IMG/VR virus record: IMGVR_UViG_3300035199_000592
Coordinates: 1 to 51,842 of that record
Direction: 5' to 3' (one strand)
DNA length: 51,842 nt
Source of the DNA: a virus
Shown: one piece after another, positions 3,430-51,842 of the stretch
How the letters are laid out: each line of letters begins with the position of its first letter
Numbering within the stretch: the first letter of the stretch is position 1
Notes under the pieces: generated by a model
Database searches by the model: none
Seen by the model: the letters and a program-made list of their open reading frames with translations, nothing else
What the model was told of the DNA's origin: nothing
Made by a program: the position numbers and the translations under genes

Positions 3430-6400
3430 ATGTTTGAAGAAGACGGAGACGAGCCCACCGAAACCATGGCTGAAGATGCCCGGAATTCCACAATGCCCCC
3501 CCTTCCGGAAGGAGGAGCCTACGACCCTTCCGACCGGGCATCATTCTGGACCTCGATCGCCGAATCCCTAAATTCGAGTTCAAAAGCTGATACGAACACA
3601 GTGTGGTACAAATCGGATGGCTCCAAGTCCAGCGCTGGCATTCCAGGTGGAGATCTAGAACAACATCTTTTCTCCACGTGGGGATCCGATCCAGCCTACG
3701 ACTATGTTAGAATGATGTGGTTGACGGCAGAAGAAAGATTTAAAGGCGCCGCTAGCACCCAGCCAGCGCACCTTGCCGCCCTGATGGATCTCCCCGACGC
3801 CATGACGGATCAAGCCCTTAGTGTGTATGGGCTTACTGCCGGCGCTATAGCAGATAGGATTTACCCTTTAATTCTAACTGAAAAACGAAAAGCCGATGCA
3901 CGGTACGAACTCAAAGCGCCACCCGCCGGCACGACTGAGGATGTCGCTGGAAAATGGGGCGATATGCTTGGCCAACCAGGCAAGGATGCTCTAGCTGCCC
4001 TTGACAAGTGTGCCTCGCAAGTAACGAATGGGGATTACTCCGGCTGCAAGCCCGGCACCGTAGATCTGGATGAGGGCACGGGAGAAGACACGCTCACTCG
4101 GACTCTTGGATTCAAAGAGCAGTGTTTTCTTTTAAGCAAGGTCTCCACTCTGGCTGCATATAAAGCCGAAGCGTCGGAAGGTACTGGCATCTTAGGACTT
4201 ACCGCCGACCCGGCAAGAACGGAAAGCGTCGGCGAACGATTTGTATGGAAGCGATGGCCATATATACCTTCTCTTTGGCATAGTTCCGGAACGAATGCCT
4301 GCATCCAAGTGCAGTCCGATCCGTTCAACTTTATAAATGATATGGTTGTTTTCCCAGATACTCAGAAGTTTCTCCAAATGCCTTCCGAAGAGATTGCCAA
4401 TTTGCAGCCAATTATTCGGCTTTTTAAAATTATTAAAGGCGCCAGCGGCTGGGAACACCAAATCCCCATACATTTTGATACAGACGCGCAATGGGATATT
4501 GCCAAGTATTTTGATGGTGGGGGATCCCGCAACGTCGGAGTGGGAATTCAAGACTTTCAGGTTAAATTTCAAGGTACTAACCCGTTTGCAGCTAAGAAAG
4601 ATCTTACGGCAAAGTTAACCATTTATGCTTCAAGTTTTGCTGACTTAGTGAGACCCAGGTATACGAAGATGGGGTCATCGATCGGGACTGAGGTTGCCAC
4701 CAGTGAGACGCAACTTAAAAGGTATCAATATATAGATTTAGCCTTAAAGACTGATTCTGCAGTCACTAAAAATAACCTCAATTCTAAAAAACAAGGCACC
4801 ACAATGAATATTGTATCGGGTCTAGATTTTTCCATACGTGCCGTCGTGGGGGTGAATCAGCCTAGACACTCTGTGTCGGGAAATGATGATCTTGAGGGAG
4901 CCCTCTCAAGAAACTTTGTCACACTAGAAATGATTCCAACAGTGCACTCATTTGATTTTAATGAAGACGGTTCAGTGAAATTTGAAATCAATTATAAGCC
5001 ATTTGTAAATGAAAACTTTAGCACCACCACTTATGATATATTTGCAACTAAAGAAATCTCGATGTTTCTGCTTGGATCTGATATTATAGCGACAAGTATT
5101 CTGAACAATTGTGATGTAGAAACAGCTGCAGAATTCAAAAGAAGCCAGGTGGAAAAAATAAAAGAAATTCAAAGTGACGCGATAAGCAGCCTCCTTAAGA
5201 CTGTATCCGATCAGGGTCTGATGAGATATCTTTGGATCCCAGCCAAGCTTTTGAAAGAAATAAACAGAGAGGGACCTCTTTTCGATTTTGAAAAACTGGT
5301 GAAAGAAAAGATGAGGATTAGCGCCTCAAAAGGCAAGCAGTTAAAGGTCAAAGTTGCCAAAGAGGCAATCAAAAGCAAAGAACCGGGAAAGAAAACCCCG
5401 ATCGCCTCGACGGCAATAAGCCCCAATAGTTCCGGCGTTCAGTTTGTATATTTAAGCGATCTGATCGACGTCATATTAGACGGCATTGATCGACGAATGC
5501 AGCCAGGCAATATTGAAGCCATGCTCGAGAACATGCAAAAGGATAACTACGGCGGACTCACTGGCAAATTCGATTGGAAATCCGAGGAAGTAATGCTACA
5601 GATGCAGCTGGCGAAAGATAGTTATGCTGCGGAATATGCGAACTTCAAGAAGCTGAGAATAGTTCTGGGCCCAGTCGAGCTGGTAAATCCAGTAAACCCA
5701 GCAGACGTTAAAATAGTTAATTTGGGAGATCTTCCGGTGTCTGTAAAATATCTTATTGAATTTCTTACTAGCGAGGTTCTAACAAAAGGAAGAAGACAGT
5801 TCCCCTTGAATCAGTGTGTCGACAAATTGATCAACAAGATGATATCCAGTTTTTTAAATAATGATTCGTGCTTTAACGGAAATGTAAAACAGAGAACGTT
5901 CCCCAGAAGAACCTCCTTCGCTGCATACGGCATGCCCACCACGCTGGGCGGCACATATCGCCAGGACGACCCGCTCTTCGCCCATCTTGTACATCGCCCA
6001 GACCTCTCAGTTTGCACTAGAATTTCCTCAAACCATTTTTCGCGACCACTGATAGACACAGTGGGAAGAGTCGGAGAACAGATCAACACCGCTACTAGAG
6101 ACCTATATATGTATTCGGTCTTCTATACCGCCAATACGCTGCCTATCGGCATGTTTACGGGCGATCAAGCGGCAGACTCCGCCCGCGGTGTACACCACTA
6201 TTGTGTGGGCAAGGACTCAGGTATTATCAAGGAAGTTAAACTCGTTCGAGACAAGAGAAAAGGAATTGCAGAGGCGAGATACGCGCAAGATGGGTTTAAC
6301 GGACTTACTCAGCTTAGAGAGATGTACCACGTAGAAATCACTACGTTTGCAAACATGTCAGTATATCCGGGCATGAAAATCTTTGTTGATCCTGCGGGCT

Positions 6401-13986: not shown

Positions 13987-15114
13987 ATGGCTCGCAAAAG
14001 TAAAGAACCAAAAGCCGGCAGGGTATCCATGCAGGATCTGATGTCGCTTGTAAACAAGAAAGCCGGCAGAAATGTCGCACACGACTTGACGGGTGAGAAC
14101 CCCACGGAAGTAAAAGAATGGATCTCCACGGGATCCCGATGGCTCGACTCCATCGTATGCAAAGGTCGTGTTGCCGGCATTCCGGTGGGGAAGGTAAGCG
14201 AGTTAGCAGGATTAGAATCAACAGGCAAATCTTACATGGCAGCACAAGTAGCCGCAAACGCCCAGAAAACGGGCAAGATGGTCGTCTACTTCGATTCCGA
14301 GTCAGCTATCGACCCAGACTTCTTGGAGCGAGCAGGATGCGACCTGGAGCGCTTAATGTACGTTCAGGCATCATCTGTAGAGTTTGTGTTAGAAACCGTG
14401 GAAGAACTGCTGGGAGCAACCGATGAACAGTTATTATTTATATGGGACTCGCTGGCGCTGACGCCCTCGGTGTCGGACGTCGAGGGAGACTTTAACCCCC
14501 AATCCTCGATGGCGGTGAAGGCTCGTATCTTAGCCAAGGGAATGTCGAAGCTGATTATTCCCATTGCTGACAAGCAAGCCACATTCTTGGTGTTGAATCA
14601 GCTTAAGACGAACATTCCCAGCGGACCCAATGCTCGCATTATTGCCATGACCACACCATACATGACACCCGGCGGCAAAGCGATGCACTATTCGTACTCG
14701 CTGCGCATCTGGCTTACAGGGCGTAAAGCCAAGTCTGCATTCATCGAAGACGAAAAGGGCTTCCGAATCGGATCCGAAGTTAAAGTTAAACTAGAGAAGT
14801 CTCGCTTTGGGACGCAAGGCAGAAACTGCGCATTCCGGATTCTTTGGGGTACCGAAGATATTGGTATTCGCGATGAGGAAAGCTGGTTTGACGCTGTAAA
14901 GAGTTCAGACTGCCTAACTTCCGCAGGTGCATGGTACACACTTAAAATGCCTGATGGATACGAGAAGAAATTCCAACCTTCCAAGTGGGCGGAGATCCTT
15001 AAAACAGATGAAGAGTTTAAGGGCAACATCATTAAACTGATGGACGAAGAGGTTGTCCAGAAGTTTGATCGCCGAGAAGGATCGGCAGATCAGTTTTACT
15101 CTGATCCGGAATAG
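13987..15114 (+). CDS. uvsX: UvsX/RecA-type recombinase
   Basis: Forms filaments on single-stranded DNA and drives strand exchange. The 375-residue protein has the RecA core: Walker A GLESTGKS at residues 75-82, a strand with the conserved Glu-like position in VVYFDSESAIDPDF, Walker B LLFIWDSLAL near residue 150, and the NQLKTNI segment that follows in RecA and UvsX. Length is close to T4 UvsX (about 390). The N-terminal part (SMQDLMSLVNKKAGRNV) resembles the polymerisation helix. The start has AAGGAG 6 bases upstream. No UvsY or UvsW is recognisable in the window. It is followed by a new promoter. Confidence 0.92.
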   Translation: MARKSKEPKAGRVSMQDLMSLVNKKAGRNVAHDLTGENPTEVKEWISTGSRWLDSIVCKGRVAGIPVGKVSELAGLESTGKSYMAAQVAANAQKTGKMVVYFDSESAIDPDFLERAGCDLERLMYVQASSVEFVLETVEELLGATDEQLLFIWDSLALTPSVSDVEGDFNPQSSMAVKARILAKGMSKLIIPIADKQATFLVLNQLKTNIPSGPNARIIAMTTPYMTPGGKAMHYSYSLRIWLTGRKAKSAFIEDEKGFRIGSEVKVKLEKSRFGTQGRNCAFRILWGTEDIGIRDEESWFDAVKSSDCLTSAGAWYTLKMPDGYEKKFQPSKWAEILKTDEEFKGNIIKLMDEEVVQKFDRREGSADQFYSDPE

Positions 15115-26829: not shown

Positions 26830-27435
26830 ATGAATGTTATAAAGTATTTTAGCCCACTCTTAAAAGAGCCAAAGATGATAGACGATTTACCCACTATCAT
26901 TAGAGTTACTAAGTTTGATGAGACCGCCGCGAAGGCGTTCTCGTCAGCAATAATGAAAGCGCAGAACACGGGTCAGCCAGTCATTCCCGTTATAATTGAC
27001 AGCTATGGCGGGCAGGTCTACAGCCTTATGTCGATGATATCAGACATAAAGCATTCCAAGATTCCGGTTGCCACCATCATTCAAGGCAAAGCAATGTCTT
27101 GTGGCGCTATACTATTTAGTTTTGGCAAAGAAGGGATGAGATATATGGATCCAGACGCCACAGTCATGATTCACGATGTAAGCTCCATGGAGCATGGAAA
27201 AGTAGAAGAGATAAAAGCCTCAGCAGAAGAAACAGAACGCCTCAATCAGAAAATATATTCGATGATGGCAGAAAACTGTGGGCAACACAAGGACTATTTT
27301 TTAGACATTGTGCACGAAAAGGGCCACGCCGACTGGTTTCTTGAGGGGGATGCTTGCAAAAAACACAATCTTGCGAACCACCTTCATGTTCCAGAGTTAA
27401 AGATTCGAGCCACTATCGATTTTGAATTTAAGTAG
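26830..27435 (+). CDS. ClpP-like serine protease with intact triad
   Basis: A 201-residue protein of ClpP size. The catalytic Ser90 lies in GKAMSCGA, His115 in TVMIHDVSS, and the Asp is best placed at 168 (HADWFL, aligned to ERDRFL of E. coli ClpP). The oxyanion-strand region IIDSYGGQVYSLMSM matches the ClpP substrate strand. There is no propeptide of note. A ClpP needs an unfoldase partner, and none is seen here, so it may use the host ClpX/ClpA or act alone on small substrates. It follows dnaE after 5 bases. A second ClpP-like gene at 32691 lacks the Asp. Confidence 0.85.
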   Translation: MNVIKYFSPLLKEPKMIDDLPTIIRVTKFDETAAKAFSSAIMKAQNTGQPVIPVIIDSYGGQVYSLMSMISDIKHSKIPVATIIQGKAMSCGAILFSFGKEGMRYMDPDATVMIHDVSSMEHGKVEEIKASAEETERLNQKIYSMMAENCGQHKDYFLDIVHEKGHADWFLEGDACKKHNLANHLHVPELKIRATIDFEFK

Positions 27436-29589: not shown

Positions 29590-29917
29590 CGGCAACGTAA
29601 AAGAAAATCAAACTTGTGTATTAAAGTTTTACTCTAACGGGTGTCACATGTGTCACGCCCTGAGTCCTTATTTTAAAGATATAGCCGAAAGCGCAGAGCA
29701 CAAAGATCTACACTTTTTTGCGTTTAATGTCGATGACTACCCAGAAATAGAAAAGATGCTCAAATTTAAGGGGGTGCCAACTATATTTATAGTTCATACA
29801 CATATAGACAACAGGCTGCCCACCATGAGAATGATGCCAGATCCCAATGAACCTAGTGAAAAAACATGGTACAAGACCCGAGAGATTAGATCATTTATAA
29901 AGAAGGAGGCACTATGA
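29543..29917 (+). CDS. Thioredoxin-like protein
   Basis: A 124-residue protein with the active site CHMC at 34-37, preceded by VLKFYSNG, and the cis-Pro loop VPTIFIV near residue 75. These are the marks of a thioredoxin fold, with an extra C-terminal helix. It can donate electrons to the class II ribonucleotide reductase at 17570 through that enzyme's C-terminal Cys pair. The start has a perfect AGGAGG ribosome site and lies inside the zinc-ribbon gene. The CHMC centre is atypical (classical is CGPC). Confidence 0.8.
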   Translation: MRINRLSTHALQNLINGNVKENQTCVLKFYSNGCHMCHALSPYFKDIAESAEHKDLHFFAFNVDDYPEIEKMLKFKGVPTIFIVHTHIDNRLPTMRMMPDPNEPSEKTWYKTREIRSFIKKEAL

Positions 29918-30945
29918 GAATGACCCTATCCTATGATGATGTGCTATTGTGTCCTCAGTATTCTGATATCAAAACAAGATCCGAGATTGATATATCCGTG
30001 AGCTTGGGAAGGGGACTGTCTTTAGCTGTACCGATCCTAGCCTCTCCAATGGACACTATTTCTGAATTTGAAATGGCAAGTTCGTTGTCGTCAGTCGGAG
30101 GAGCCGCAGTAATTCATCGGTACAACACGATTGCACACCAAGCACAATTAGTGATGGCAGCAAAAGAGCTTCAGCCTGAAGGATTAACAGTGGGAGCGGC
30201 AGTCGGGATCAGCGGGGACTATTTGAATAGAGCTGCCGTACTCAATGCTCTCGCAGTCGACTTTATTTGTGTCGACGTCGCCCACGGTCATCACATCTCA
30301 ATGAAAGAGGCACTAACCGCACTCAGGTCTTTGCTGGGTGATCAGATACACATAATGGCAGGAAATGTCGCGACCCTTGCGGGCGTTAACGATTTGGCTG
30401 ATTGGGGAGCAGACTCCGTTAGGTGCAATATTGGAGGCGGCTCAATCTGTTCTACCCGCATACAGACCGGTCATGGTATGCCTGGCTTGCAGACAATTAT
30501 AGATTGCGCGCAGACAGATCGCGATGTGAAGATCATCGCGGATGGCGGAATAAGAAATTCAGGAGACATGGTAAAGGCATTCGCTGCCGGCGCCGACGTA
30601 GTAATGTGCGGCTCTCTTTTTGCCGGCACCGCTGAAACCCCGGGCGAGATAATGGAAGATCAAGCCGGCCACCGGTGGAAAATATATAGAGGAATGGCTA
30701 GCAAGGAAGCTCAAATTGACTGGAGAGGCAAGTACTCATCATTTGAAGGGGTGTCCTCCAGGGTACCATATCGAGGTAAAATTTCTGACATTGTAGAGGA
30801 TTTAAGCCGCGGCATTAAGTCAGGTTTTTCTTACTCCGGCGCCCGAAACCTCGCGGAGTTTCAAGCTAAGTCAAAATTCATAATGCAAACGCCTGCCGGA
30901 CAATCCGAAAGCTCAACCCACATCATGTCGAGAGAGTGGAAATGA
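29914..30945 (+). CDS. IMP dehydrogenase / GMP reductase family enzyme
   Basis: A TIM-barrel purine enzyme of 343 residues, with no CBS pair. It shows the N-terminal [11 protein letters not shown] and the substrate Cys179 in [20 protein letters not shown] has GPGSICTTR with GVG, and GMP reductase has a very similar loop with TGVG. The phosphate-binding [10 protein letters not shown] and MCGSLFAG follow, with the flap region SSRVPYRGK. The Thr/Gly after the Cys loop reads TGHG, so the reaction (IMP to XMP, or GMP to IMP) cannot be fixed from motifs. It should rebalance purine pools together with the ribonucleotide reductase. Confidence 0.85.
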
Positions 30946-32268: not shown

Positions 32269-32694
32269 GTGGCTATTTATTTAGAGAGGTGCATTCTGCA
32301 GATACTATTATATTTTTTGATATTCATATTTGGATATATAACATGTAAGACGTTTTATTTTATGAGAAGCGCAAACCTCAGTCTGCGCACTATTAGAATT
32401 TCTCATTTAATCTATCTGTCGGCAATGATGAAGTCCATCGAAAACTTAGCAACTTCCCGCGAACTGATGTTAGAATATTTATTAAAGACTGAAAAATCTT
32501 CCAATGCTATCACATCGTTTACCATAGCTTTCGATAAGAATGTTGATCACATAAAAGAAAATTCCATAAAAGTACTCATTGGTTCCCACCCGAGATTCTT
32601 TAAAGAATATGTAGATTTCGATGACTGGGAGTCATCAATGGTATACCTCGCGAAACATCAGAAAGCAGCACTTGAGTTTTGGAGAACACAATGA
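32269..32694 (+). CDS. Membrane-anchored small protein, unknown
   Basis: A 141-residue protein. The likely start is GTG 32269, 20-odd bases after the predicted transcription start, without a clear Shine-Dalgarno; a later start within the hydrophobic segment cannot be excluded. Residues 8-30 form one membrane span (ILQILLYFLIFIFGYIT). The remainder is a soluble helical domain. It overlaps the ClpP-like gene by ATGA, so the two are probably co-expressed. I do not recognise it. An adaptor that holds the protease at the membrane is imaginable but not shown. Confidence 0.5.
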   Translation: MAIYLERCILQILLYFLIFIFGYITCKTFYFMRSANLSLRTIRISHLIYLSAMMKSIENLATSRELMLEYLLKTEKSSNAITSFTIAFDKNVDHIKENSIKVLIGSHPRFFKEYVDFDDWESSMVYLAKHQKAALEFWRTQ

Positions 32695-33350
32695 TAAAAA
32701 AGATAAAAGACTTGATTGAATCAGCGATAGGAGAAGAAGGAGCCCCGCCTCCCAAGAAAACAATAGTATTAGATCCGGCAGAGGCGGCAGAATTGCTCGC
32801 TGCAATGCCGTCTGAGCCGGACATGAGAATAATCGGGCTCTTCACGGAGGTTTCCGAAGAAAAGAACGCCGAATTGATTCATGCTTTGTTGTACCTTAAC
32901 GAGCTTAATAAGTTGGAGGCGAAAGAATCACGAAAGCGCCCCATTGAGTTTTATGTTTCCACATATGGAGGATCAGCAGACGATATGTTTGGTATGTATG
33001 ATATGATGCGCCAGATCCGAGAAGAGACTGAGATTCACACGATCGGACTCGGCAAAGTGATGTCTGCTGGGGTGCTTATTTTAGCCTCGGGAACCAAGGG
33101 CAAGCGGAAGATCGGAAAGTATTGCAGAGTAATGATTCACTCAGTCATCGCGGGCAACCATGGCAGCTTGTCCAATCTTGTAAATGAGATGGAGGCAATC
33201 CAGAGGATACAAGAAGATTATATCGAAGCTTTAGTGGCCGAGACTGATATGACGAAAAAGGATATTAAAAATATGCTAGAACGTAAAGTTAACGTCTATT
33301 TATCTGCAGAAGAAGCCGTGGAATTAGGCATAGCTGACATAATTATTTGA
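32691..33350 (+). CDS. ClpP-like protein with catalytic Asp replaced by Asn
   Basis: A 219-residue ClpP relative. ATG 32691 is chosen because it overlaps the previous gene by ATGA and has GGAG upstream. Ser125 (GKVMSAGV) and His150 (RVMIHSV) are present, as is the glycine-rich strand YVSTYGGSADDM. At the Asp position the sequence reads VNVYLSAEEA, aligned to RDRFLSAPEA of E. coli ClpP. That gives Asn201. Listeria ClpP1 has the same Asp-to-Asn change and works in mixed rings with ClpP2. Here the partner could be the ClpP at 26830. A role as prohead protease is the alternative, given the late neighbours. Confidence 0.8.
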   Translation: MIKKIKDLIESAIGEEGAPPPKKTIVLDPAEAAELLAAMPSEPDMRIIGLFTEVSEEKNAELIHALLYLNELNKLEAKESRKRPIEFYVSTYGGSADDMFGMYDMMRQIREETEIHTIGLGKVMSAGVLILASGTKGKRKIGKYCRVMIHSVIAGNHGSLSNLVNEMEAIQRIQEDYIEALVAETDMTKKDIKNMLERKVNVYLSAEEAVELGIADIII

Positions 33351-48899: not shown

Positions 48900-49118
48900 A
48901 TGAAGATCGGTGACCTCGTAACATTCATTCCGAGTGCTTCTTCTACTTTCAAGTGGGAGAAGTACATGGAGTCGAAAGCTATTCCGGGGATAATCTTGCG
49001 AGAGTTGAACGAAAAGGGCACCACCACCCGCCGATTTGAGATCCGCTGGCACGATGGAGATATTACCGAAGAATGGATAAGTTTTCTTGAGCCCTTTGAC
49101 AACTCCTTGACAGCTTAA
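48900..49118 (+). CDS. SH3/KOW-like small protein, MKIGDLV
   Basis: A 72-residue protein beginning MKIGDLVTFIP and ending WISFLEPF. Between lie IPGIILRELN and FEIRWHDGDITEEW. This matches the family order seen in the array at 50179-51842. It sits 24 bases after the tRNA and has no strong ribosome site. It could ride the tRNA transcript. Function unknown. Confidence 0.55.
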   Translation: MKIGDLVTFIPSASSTFKWEKYMESKAIPGIILRELNEKGTTTRRFEIRWHDGDITEEWISFLEPFDNSLTA

Positions 49119-49657: not shown

Positions 49658-49959
49658 TGAACATTTGGGTAGTACGACAGACTTGCACGTATGATAACGA
49701 TACTTATGTAAGCACACACATGACAGAAAAGGGCGCGTTGATCACAGCTATTAAAACAGTGCGAGGGGATTTGTGCGATGGCATCGATGAGGATGAACTT
49801 GAAGATATGCGTGCTGGTATGCCTCACAGCCATGAGGAAGATTTGATGCAGTATGACAGCAAACAACTACGGGGCATTGTGAGTGACTGGTGGGAATATG
49901 CGTGGGATATTGACGAACACGCACAATACCAGATACATCAAACACAGGTGGAAGGATGA
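49654..49959 (+). CDS. Acidic small protein, tandem paralogue B
   Basis: A 101-residue paralogue of the preceding protein. ATG 49654 is chosen because it matches the paralogue start and overlaps the preceding stop by ATGA. It keeps the two conserved ends (MNIWVVRQ and LRGIVSDWWEYAWDIDEH) while the middle has diverged (DELEDMRAGMPHSHEED). The C-terminus has extra His/Gln residues (HAQYQIHQTQ). Function unknown. Confidence 0.6.
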   Translation: MMNIWVVRQTCTYDNDTYVSTHMTEKGALITAIKTVRGDLCDGIDEDELEDMRAGMPHSHEEDLMQYDSKQLRGIVSDWWEYAWDIDEHAQYQIHQTQVEG

Positions 49960-50192
49960 CTATACTAACTACATTTATTTTAGTGGGAATGATCGACTCT
50001 CACGATGCCCATTTTGCAACGGTGGAGATAAACACTAATCCAGCATCTAATGGTGGCCCCGCAATCGCGGTGATGCCGGTGAGTGCCTTTCCATGCGAGA
50101 TTTACGAAGGCAAGGTATTTTACGTCGTTAAACTTTCTGAGATGGAAGATGCTGTTATTGTTTGTCAAAAGGAGCCTGATGAAAGTCGGTGA
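49956..50192 (+). CDS. Small protein, unknown, last before the array
   Basis: A 78-residue protein from ATG 49956 (ATGA overlap). It begins MTILTTFILVGMIDSHDAHF with a hydrophobic strand, contains SNGGPAIAVMPVSAF, and ends EPDESR. That E-S-R stop falls in the 14-base overlap with the first true array gene, as in array members, so it already carries the array's junction. Its body is not of the MKVGDLV family. Confidence 0.5.
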   Translation: MTILTTFILVGMIDSHDAHFATVEINTNPASNGGPAIAVMPVSAFPCEIYEGKVFYVVKLSEMEDAVIVCQKEPDESR

Positions 50193-50373
50193 TTTGGTAA
50201 GGTTTGAAAGTGTCTTGAACGATGATATGGATCGTTATACTGCGGAGCATGGTTTGGTGGTGAAGATGTCCAAGACTGGACACGATACAGAGTCAGCACA
50301 AGTGCTGTTTAATGACGGAGAAACTTGGTGGGTTGGCACTCAAAGATTGGCGGTGGTAAGTGAAAGTAGGTGA
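50179..50373 (+). CDS. Array protein 1 (MKVGDLV family)
   Basis: A 64-residue protein beginning MKVGDLVRFES and ending RLAVVSESR, with EHGLVVKMSK and AQVLFNDGETWW between. I read it as a small five-strand SH3/KOW-like barrel. The start at 50179 lies in a 14-base overlap with the preceding gene, and AAAGGAG is upstream. Its own last 14 bases start array protein 2. Confidence 0.65.
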   Translation: MKVGDLVRFESVLNDDMDRYTAEHGLVVKMSKTGHDTESAQVLFNDGETWWVGTQRLAVVSESR

Positions 50374-50587
50374 CTTAGTTAAACTTTCGTCGTCGGCATC
50401 GGGCAGAGCATCATTCCGCGCTGGGCTTATTGTTGAGTTTATCGAAAAGAAGTGCTGGCGCACAGAAGAACTTGGCATCAAGGTAGATTGGAGTAAGATC
50501 GATCCCGAGCCACACGCAGTTGTGCTGATTAACGGCGACAAGAGAGCGATCCCCGTTACAGATTTGGAACCTATTGATGAAAGATAG
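50360..50587 (+). CDS. Array protein 2 (MKVGDLV family)
   Basis: A 75-residue protein beginning MKVGDLVKLSSSASG and ending TDLEPIDER, with a middle of FRAGLIVEFIEKKC and HAVVLINGDKRA. GTG 50360 is preceded by GGCGGTGG, encoded by the upstream AVV codons. It ends in an 11-base overlap with protein 3, a variant of the standard 14-base junction. Confidence 0.65.
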   Translation: MKVGDLVKLSSSASGRASFRAGLIVEFIEKKCWRTEELGIKVDWSKIDPEPHAVVLINGDKRAIPVTDLEPIDER

Positions 50588-50801
50588 TGGAGCGCCCAGC
50601 ATTGGCGATCTTGTTGTTGCGCTCTACGATGAGGAACGCGATATTTCTTGCGTTGGGTTGGTGATGGAGACTAAAGGAATCGAGTGCAAGGTTCTGTGGT
50701 CATCCGAGAACAATCCGGTCGGGTGGTGGTCACGAAGCGCACTAAAAGTTATCAGCCCAAGCGGGACGACAAAAAGTTTAACGCACTTAACATTCACTTG
50801 A
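50577..50801 (+). CDS. Array protein 3 (divergent member)
   Basis: A 74-residue protein with a longer start (MKDSGAPSIGDLVVALYDEE) before the GDLV signature, then CVGLVMETKG, CKVLWSSENN, and ALKVISPSG near the end. After VIS it runs on for another 12 residues (GTTKSLTHLT) instead of ending SESR. The chain of overlaps stops here and a promoter follows, so it looks like the end of one sub-array. Confidence 0.6.
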   Translation: MKDSGAPSIGDLVVALYDEERDISCVGLVMETKGIECKVLWSSENNPVGWWSRSALKVISPSGTTKSLTHLTFT

Positions 50802-50812
50802 CAACTTAGAGG

Positions 50813-50841
50813 TTGACGAGCGCCCGCTTGGGTGCTATATT
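50813..50841 (+). promoter_or_regulatory. Extended -10 promoter of the second array segment
   Basis: TTGACG, 17-base spacer ending GGTGC, TATATT. The ATG of array protein 4 starts 6 bases after the -10, so the transcript is predicted to begin at, or within a base or two of, the start codon: a leaderless message. Confidence 0.8.
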
Positions 50842-50847
50842 ATATAT

Positions 50848-51030
50848 ATGAAAGTAGGTGATTTGGTAAAGTTTGAGGCTGATAACGCCATCGGTTCCGT
50901 AGGCGTGATCGTTGCTATGCTCCCCCGCGATGAGATTCTTGCAAGTGCAGTCTCCGTATTGTGGTCGTCTGGTGAACTCGTTGAAAGAACGAATCCGGGG
51001 ATCTTGGAGGTGATTAGTGAAAGTCGGTGA
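50848..51030 (+). CDS. Array protein 4 (MKVGDLV family)
   Basis: A 60-residue protein beginning MKVGDLVKFEADN and ending ILEVISESR, with SVGVIVAMLP and SAVSVLWSSGE between. It begins the segment driven by the promoter at 50813 and probably has no 5' leader. It ends with TTGGAGGTGATTAGTGAAAG, which is both EVISES and the ribosome site and start of the next gene. Confidence 0.65.
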   Translation: MKVGDLVKFEADNAIGSVGVIVAMLPRDEILASAVSVLWSSGELVERTNPGILEVISESR

Positions 51031-51226
51031 CTTGGTAAGATTCAAAAAGAAAGGATATATAGGCACCATTACAGCAAAGGGTCACGATCACTGGAATGGC
51101 ACATCATCTTCCGTGTGGGTACACATTCACAACTTCCGCCCAACCCGAGGTAACACACAAAACCCAGCTTTGTTTCGCGTTGGGCATTTGCGAGAAGTAG
51201 TGGAGGTGATTAGTGAAAGTCGGTAA
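51017..51226 (+). CDS. Array protein 5 (MKVGDLV family)
   Basis: A 69-residue protein beginning MKVGDLVRFKKKGYIGTITA and ending VEVISESR. Its middle holds SSVWVHIHNFRP, a longer turn than in its neighbours. GTG 51017 has GGAGGTGAT two bases upstream, close to a perfect match to the anti-Shine-Dalgarno. This start lies in the 14-base overlap with protein 4. Confidence 0.65.
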   Translation: MKVGDLVRFKKKGYIGTITAKGHDHWNGTSSSVWVHIHNFRPTRGNTQNPALFRVGHLREVVEVISESR

Positions 51227-51395
51227 CTTAGTTAAAAGAAGGGATGACCACGCGCACCACGGCATTGTTGTGGAGGTTGGACCCCAAGAGACTGCGATCG
51301 ATCACGGAAATCATGTGGCGAGGGTTCAGTGGACAGATGGAGACTTGACTTACGAGTTTATAAAGATGCTTGAGGTATTGAGTGAAGGTGGGTGA
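51213..51395 (+). CDS. Array protein 6 (MKVGNLV variant)
   Basis: A 60-residue protein that begins MKVGNLVKRRDDHAHHGIVV, with Asn in place of the family Asp. It continues HVARVQWTDGD and ends MLEVLSEGG. It starts at GTG 51213 after GGAGGTGAT and ends in a 14-base junction with a diverged sequence (GTGAAGGTGGGTGA). Confidence 0.65.
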   Translation: MKVGNLVKRRDDHAHHGIVVEVGPQETAIDHGNHVARVQWTDGDLTYEFIKMLEVLSEGG

Positions 51396-51573
51396 CTTGG
51401 TGACAGTGGGTCCACGGCACCCCGGCGCAACAAAACCGTTTGTGAGCGTTGTGCTGGAGATTTGCACTCCAGAAATGCAGGCATCAGGTATGCATTTGAT
51501 TAAAGTTGTGGAACGTAGCCAGTCTAAATGGTATCCCATTGGATACATCGAGGTGATAAATGAAAGTCGGTGA
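51382..51573 (+). CDS. Array protein 7 (MKVGDLV family)
   Basis: A 63-residue protein that begins MKVGDLVTVGPRHPG and ends YIEVINESR. The middle has FVSVVLEICTPEM and LIKVVERSQSKWYPIG. GTG 51382 follows the weaker GAGGTATT site. The EVINESR end recodes the next ribosome site and ATG. Confidence 0.65.
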   Translation: MKVGDLVTVGPRHPGATKPFVSVVLEICTPEMQASGMHLIKVVERSQSKWYPIGYIEVINESR

Positions 51574-51748
51574 TTTGGTTAGAAAGAAATACAGACAATA
51601 CCATGTGCTTACGGCGGCGAGCTTCAAGAGCAGCAGCATACATATCGTGACAGAGACACGAATCAACTGGATTAAGGTGCTTGCCCATGGAGAATCTGTG
51701 GGCTGGCTCCGCGCCGATGATTGGGAGTTGGTAAATGAAGCTGGGTGA
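51560..51748 (+). CDS. Array protein 8 (MKVGDLV family)
   Basis: A 62-residue protein that begins MKVGDLVRKKYRQYHVLTAA and ends WELVNEAG. It is more basic than the others, with KSSSIHIVTE in the middle and GWLRADDW near the end. ATG 51560 follows GAGGTGATA. The junction to the next gene has drifted (ATGAAGCTGGGTGA). Confidence 0.65.
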   Translation: MKVGDLVRKKYRQYHVLTAASFKSSSIHIVTETRINWIKVLAHGESVGWLRADDWELVNEAG

Positions 51749-51842
51749 TCTGGTAAAGACGAAGGGCGATCCGTGGGATACGCTGGGAGTCGTCATTGAA
51801 CTCGGATTTCATTATGTCATGGTCAGATGGGCATGCGGAACC
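51735..51842 (+). CDS. Array protein 9, cut by the window end
   Basis: A frame open to the right edge, with 36 residues visible. It begins MKLGDLVKTKGDPWDTLGVV and continues with YVMVRWACG. It follows GGGAGTTGGT and the same overlap as its neighbours. The array therefore continues beyond the window, so its total size is unknown. Confidence 0.6.
   Translation, partial: MKLGDLVKTKGDPWDTLGVVIELGFHYVMVRWACGT

Follow-up and report, generated by a model that had tools for sequence, protein, structure and literature searches.

How can a virus hold a changeable set of genes while their reading frames stay unbroken? The question is raised by a row of very small genes in which the end of one gene is typically written in the same DNA as the beginning of the next. 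The row lies in a tailed-phage fragment that forms a whole IMG/VR record (G000) of 51,842 bases, referred to here as the window. The answer proposed below is that the linker between the genes is itself part of the code.

The array and its genome

The window also encodes a tail tape measure protein and a DNA polymerase. Among the isolate matches listed, the best for its helicase reach no more than 39% identity, and those for its ribonucleotide reductase no more than 47%. An IMP dehydrogenase-like ORF (29914-30945) and two ClpP-like ORFs (26830-27435 and 32679-33350) were recognised by eye. The array itself (50179-51842) lies 3' of a tRNA-Leu and extends into the right-hand end of the window; it comprises eight complete genes and a ninth that is cut, all coding for small SH3/KOW-like proteins. 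The features concerned are:

13987..15114, + strand: UvsX-like recombinase (PHROG 97, E 1e-58), candidate for the recombination step
48900..49118, + strand: g0, a separate family member, MKIGDLV, uncoupled
49956..50192, + strand: upstream gene unrelated to the array (family F2), tail DESR
50179..50373, + strand: g1, ORF of 64 aa, MKVGDLV...VVSESR
50360..50587, + strand: g2, ORF of 75 aa
50577..50801, + strand: g3, atypical member identified from its ORF and orthologues, start MKDSGAPSIGDLV
50813..50841, + strand: sigma70-like promoter TTGACG-17-TATATT, in the gap after g3
50848..51030, + strand: g4, ORF of 60 aa, opening the second operon
51017..51226, + strand: g5, ORF of 69 aa
51213..51395, + strand: g6, 60 aa, last strand LEVLS
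51382..51573, + strand: g7, ORF of 63 aa, orthologue family F16
51560..51748, + strand: g8, ORF of 62 aa
51735..51842, + strand: g9, ORF cut by the record end

An earlier note on this DNA had described nine genes of one skeleton in a single row. The number stands, but g3 is atypical: it is the final gene of its operon and has the tail KVISPSG..., without ESR. The 46-base gap between g3 and g4 holds a promoter, and the genes therefore form two operons rather than one row. Only 6 bases separate the end of the -10 box from the g4 ATG, so the g4 mRNA probably lacks a leader; 26/230 promoters of related arrays show this spacing as well. Promoters in those arrays number 230 on the coding strand versus 15 on the other. 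The promoter spacer in the window holds a hairpin (50819-50836), and hairpins with an MFE of -3 or below are found in 18% of promoter elements, as against 8% of shuffles, a weak signal for a general element of the PeSL kind (discussed below). The TGA stop of g3 sits within a TTGACA; in the window (50798-50803) and related loci, 60 of 250 terminal-gene stops lie within TTGAC, compared with 8% of all TGA.

Arrays of this kind are not confined to the window. A 28-base junction pattern matched 85 stretches in IMG/VR and a laxer pattern at least 120, while among bacteria and archaea (257 Gb of genome sequence) the laxer DNA pattern matched only four; the junction is far more frequent in viral contigs than chance allows. 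Twenty viral records, including the window, carry 8-30 profile matches each, and the other 19 have lengths of 135-267 kb. Such rows of small barrel genes are a feature of large marine phages. The protein family is large, and tblastn of 50,697 isolate phage records with g4 and a consensus sequence as queries gave no significant relative.

An array with 14-base overlaps also occurs in a metagenome-assembled genome (MAG) titled as a WOR-3 chromosome (loci L207, G020:C1:2135000-2154999, and L129). There it adjoins a likely T4-like terminase, recognised by eye, and runs of N, and for that reason it is read as phage DNA probably scaffolded into the MAG, not as an array truly carried by a WOR-3 chromosome.

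A junction read in two frames

Seven overlaps of exactly 14 bases, as the earlier note had counted, are found at the following positions, the first of which joins the non-array upstream gene to g1; the g2/g3 overlap is 11 bases.

50179-50192, 50360-50373, 51017-51030, 51213-51226, 51382-51395, 51560-51573, 51735-51748: exact 14-base overlaps
51017..51030, + strand: example junction GTGAAAGTCGGTGA, encoding M-K-V-G-D of g5 and S-E-S-R-stop of g4; like it are those at 50179, 50360, 51213 (a TAA variant), 51382, 51560 and 51735
51006..51010, + strand: Shine-Dalgarno GGAGG in the E-V codons of g4, from the sequence and the codon test
51202-51206, + strand: Shine-Dalgarno GGAGG for g6, in the same arrangement as in g4

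In the start tag RTGAAAGTNGGTGAY, a TGA at bases 2-4 shuts one of the two other frames and a TGA at bases 12-14 shuts the second, so that only an upstream gene in phase with the tag would read through. No two members were found joined in frame, as judged by the motif used. Among 867 profile-supported genes, ten of which lay too close to a locus end and were left out of the scoring, 515 have an upstream ORF ending at +14 only, 136 one ending at +4 only, and 46 have both endings; the remaining 160 have neither.

The ESR tail of the array proteins is the next gene's MKVGD codons in another frame. The tail [SN]ESR ends 359 ORFs; in 345 it is written by the exact junction DNA, and in nearly all the rest by its TAA or TAG variant. 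The unrelated F2 family behaves likewise: its members have the ending DESR or DENR if the next gene is an array gene at overlap 14, and other endings where none follows, and it is because g1 follows that the F2 gene of the window ends in DESR. A natural test is provided by locus L097, where the tag has GGC in place of GGT; here F2 extends as DESRRSGKD to an overlap of 29 bases, a read-on which fits the prediction of the dual-stop model. The claim that the next gene sets the C-terminal peptide is thus borne out, and this conserved peptide is explained as a by-product, with no need to see a functional motif in it. It had also been supposed that the tail serves to launch the next gene; tail and launch signal are both encoded at the junction, but the latter is the preceding E-V codon pair and not ESR itself.

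A second kind of dual-use joint is seen in locus L025 (1897-8977), where seven array genes have KKCP ends encoded by AAAAAATGTCCTTGAC. The stop TGA there overlaps a TTGAC -35 box, and in several of these joints GGACA..TGTCC can form a hairpin.

The Shine-Dalgarno sequence had been called near-perfect. The only junctions with a full GGAGG are g4/g5 and g5/g6; the remaining junctions have GAGG or weaker. The constraint is visible in codon usage across the family. The last-strand Glu codon is GAG rather than GAA in a ratio of 362:8 in coupled genes, compared with 6:14 in uncoupled genes and 890:1126 in gene bodies, a bias attributed to the Shine-Dalgarno sequence written in these codons. GTG starts are common only in coupled genes (264/515, versus 23/160 uncoupled), as expected if ribosomes come from upstream. 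The Gly codon at position 4 is GGT in 751/857 genes (88%), as against 1042/3450 (30%) in bodies. In 14-coupled genes GGT is true by definition of that overlap, and the informative shares are the 70% at overlap 4 (41/136 non-GGT) and the 59% without overlap.

Gain, loss and order of genes

A fixed number and order of genes in related phages would have spoken against gain and loss; in related loci the orthologues of the window genes differ in number and order. The g1 gene, which has orthologues at 13 loci (57-86% identical), directly precedes g2 in the window, L094, L096 and L097, follows g3 in L093 and L095, and is separated from g2 by one or two additional units in L099 and L100. In L095, F2 is joined straight to g2. 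One orthologue can thus follow different genes in different loci, and the g7 family, F16, has six different neighbour pairs across eight loci.

The clearest cases come from nearly identical contigs. Between L094 and L096, identity is 99.6% across 8.9 kb and 100% across the 3.1 kb that follow; a single 176-base unit sets them apart, and its breakpoint homology, ATGAAAGTCGGTGATTTGGT, is the 20-base tag. A second one-unit difference separates L202 from L052, contigs which are more than 99% identical. In both pairs the overlap through which the downstream gene is entered is 14 bases when the unit is absent and 4 when it is present; the dual stop is therefore in use.

Over 16 gene-sized indels, some of which share contigs and are not fully independent, the start tag lies at the breakpoint in 14, compared with 17% on random placement, and the breakpoint homology of 7-51 bases contains or touches a tag. 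This agrees with the earlier proposal that copies are gained and lost by recombination at the junction. Tag-driven recombination is supported rather than proven, because of the shared contigs and because selection for whole genes also acts; selection alone would leave whole-gene breakpoints too, and the tag may do no more than mark viable joins passively. In L052, two paralogues (3797-3988 and 4909-5091) have common C-terminal halves and different middles, as if by part-gene exchange.

Selection and fold

The middles of the proteins had been expected to be diversifying. This expectation is contradicted by orthologue comparisons: in 11 array families the median dN/dS of the middles (Nei-Gojobori) ranges from 0.09 to 0.48, with a median of 0.31, and for g1 it is 0.20. 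The corresponding range for 15 other families of the region, including F4 of g3, is 0.10-0.52, with a median of 0.19. By these estimates the middles are under purifying selection, their diversity reflecting old paralogy and turnover, and the low values argue that the array frames are translated and functional.

The array proteins are predicted to form an SH3/KOW-like barrel whose last strand is preceded by a short helix, in keeping with what had been suspected from the sequence. The AlphaFold2 model of g6 is a five-stranded SH3-like barrel (pLDDT 86.5, pTM 0.70) in which the tail after the last strand, LEVLS, falls outside the barrel; that of g2 (pLDDT 80) has five strands in the same order, with the short helix preceding the last. 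Foldseek gives TMq values of about 0.65-0.8 to KOW, Tudor, PetP and YorP. The nearest folds are ribosomal and DSIF KOW domains, other matches are mostly uncharacterised phage proteins, and the search against the PDB gave no fold match at E<0.001. Scans of Pfam and PHROGs produced weak, scattered matches, with no Pfam family matched by more than 2/80 members. Conservation of the middles is below 0.5 bits per position, compared with 1.4-4.9 bits at both ends. Even so, with the ends removed, a profile from half of the set finds 85/190 other proteins at E<0.01 and 0/950 shuffles, which argues for real homology of the middles.

Proposed mechanism and its alternatives

Taken together, these observations are best read, with a probability of about 0.8, as a translationally coupled, frame-proof cassette array of early phage barrel genes which is shuffled by recombination at start tags. 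One unit would be the stretch between successive start tags. The tag, RTGAAAGTNGGTGAYYTRGT, encodes the N-terminus MKVGDLV and stops the preceding gene in either out-of-phase frame, the outcome being either an ESR tail at overlap 14 or an overlap of 4. With the ribosome-binding site for the next gene written in the last-strand E-V codons, translation would pass from gene to gene. Homologous recombination between tags would insert, delete or reorder whole units, perhaps carried out by the UvsX-like recombinase of the phage; such shuffling would cause no frame damage because every unit starts with the same ~20 bases.

The array is probably an early host-directed gene repertoire, and small size, host-type promoters, rapid turnover and an orphan-gene neighbourhood would fit this, a role already proposed for other variable regions in T4-like phages. 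The proteins could be small binding proteins against host targets, serving takeover or counter-defence, which we suggest with low confidence. The fullest form of the proposal, in which one coding tag is start region, dual-frame stop, translational coupler and recombination site at once and the array of host-directed barrel proteins is self-propagating, is put forward tentatively, at somewhat less than even odds.

Another reading is that the tag is kept solely for the barrel N-terminus MKVGDLV, overlaps and breakpoints being passive consequences of compact genomes and whole-gene selection. MKVGDLV is indeed retained in genes without upstream overlap, and phage mosaicism often has its breakpoints at gene ends (PMC3029335). 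Selection on the N-terminus does not, however, agree with a Glu codon that is GAG only in coupled genes, a Gly codon that is GGT in 88% of cases versus 30% in bodies, tails written by junction DNA, or the 7-51 bases of breakpoint homology at tags, and we consider this reading rather improbable. It is less probable still that the array is an antigen-like store of diversity whose middles are positively selected to match changing host targets. Poorly conserved middles between well-conserved ends, and many paralogues per genome, are what such a store would show, but dN/dS stays at 0.09-0.48 and the array median is modestly above that of its neighbours.

The proteins might be KOW-type factors which redirect host expression and have the ribosome or RNA polymerase as binding partner, a role compatible with the array mechanism. 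The family profile matches Spt5 KOW (E 1.7e-4) and NusG and uL24 chains, in line with the nearest folds. These matches span only ~25-45 residues and could reflect a common barrel, and with no PDB match below the threshold this role is judged unlikely. The cassette array, as preferred here, offers a testable rule for the growth of phage early-gene islands, and the tag is a simple handle for detecting these arrays in metagenomes and counting them.

Comparison with known systems

The predicted five-stranded barrel is shared with KOW/SH3-like barrels (Spt5, NusG, uL24), PetP and YorP of phage SPbeta. Array members differ from KOW/SH3-like barrels in being stand-alone proteins of 50-75 residues, in arrays, and the sequence relation is weak. 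As a row of modules the array resembles integron gene cassettes, modular single-gene units captured in rows, but its units share coding tags; breakpoint homology already accounts for the array joins, for which attC sites and an integrase would be the integron counterpart.

Cyanophage S-PM2 carries an ORFanage, a run of small, overlapping and losable orphan genes (PMC4503421). Many overlaps there are of 4 bases, and the MKVGD-type gene motif is absent from it (AJ630128, 4000-18000). In mycobacteriophages, Island3 gene 67/68 and Brujita provide a case of one gene gained or lost via short repeats at gene ends (PMC3029335). Short homology at gene boundaries is common to such mosaicism and to 14/16 of the indels described here. 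The mycobacteriophage example is a single case with similar C-terminal ends, whereas here hundreds of genes have one common start tag.

The PeSL elements of T4-like phages are mobile regulatory cassettes of promoter and stem-loop (Arbiol 2010 and Comeau 2014, as cited in PMC4503421). They lie between small early genes, and a role in shuffling genes within variable regions has been proposed for them (PMC4503421). The portions of the open literature on PeSLs and boundary mosaicism available to us describe no coding tag that is at once a start, a dual-frame stop and a recombination site. As far as those accounts go, the likeness lies in a repeated short element and in early-type promoters adjoining the genes, with the strand bias noted above (230 versus 15). 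The differences are that the repeat here codes in two frames, as one gene's start and another's end, and that, as the indel breakpoints indicate, the shuffled modules are joined in a coding start tag and not in a promoter/stem-loop repeat.
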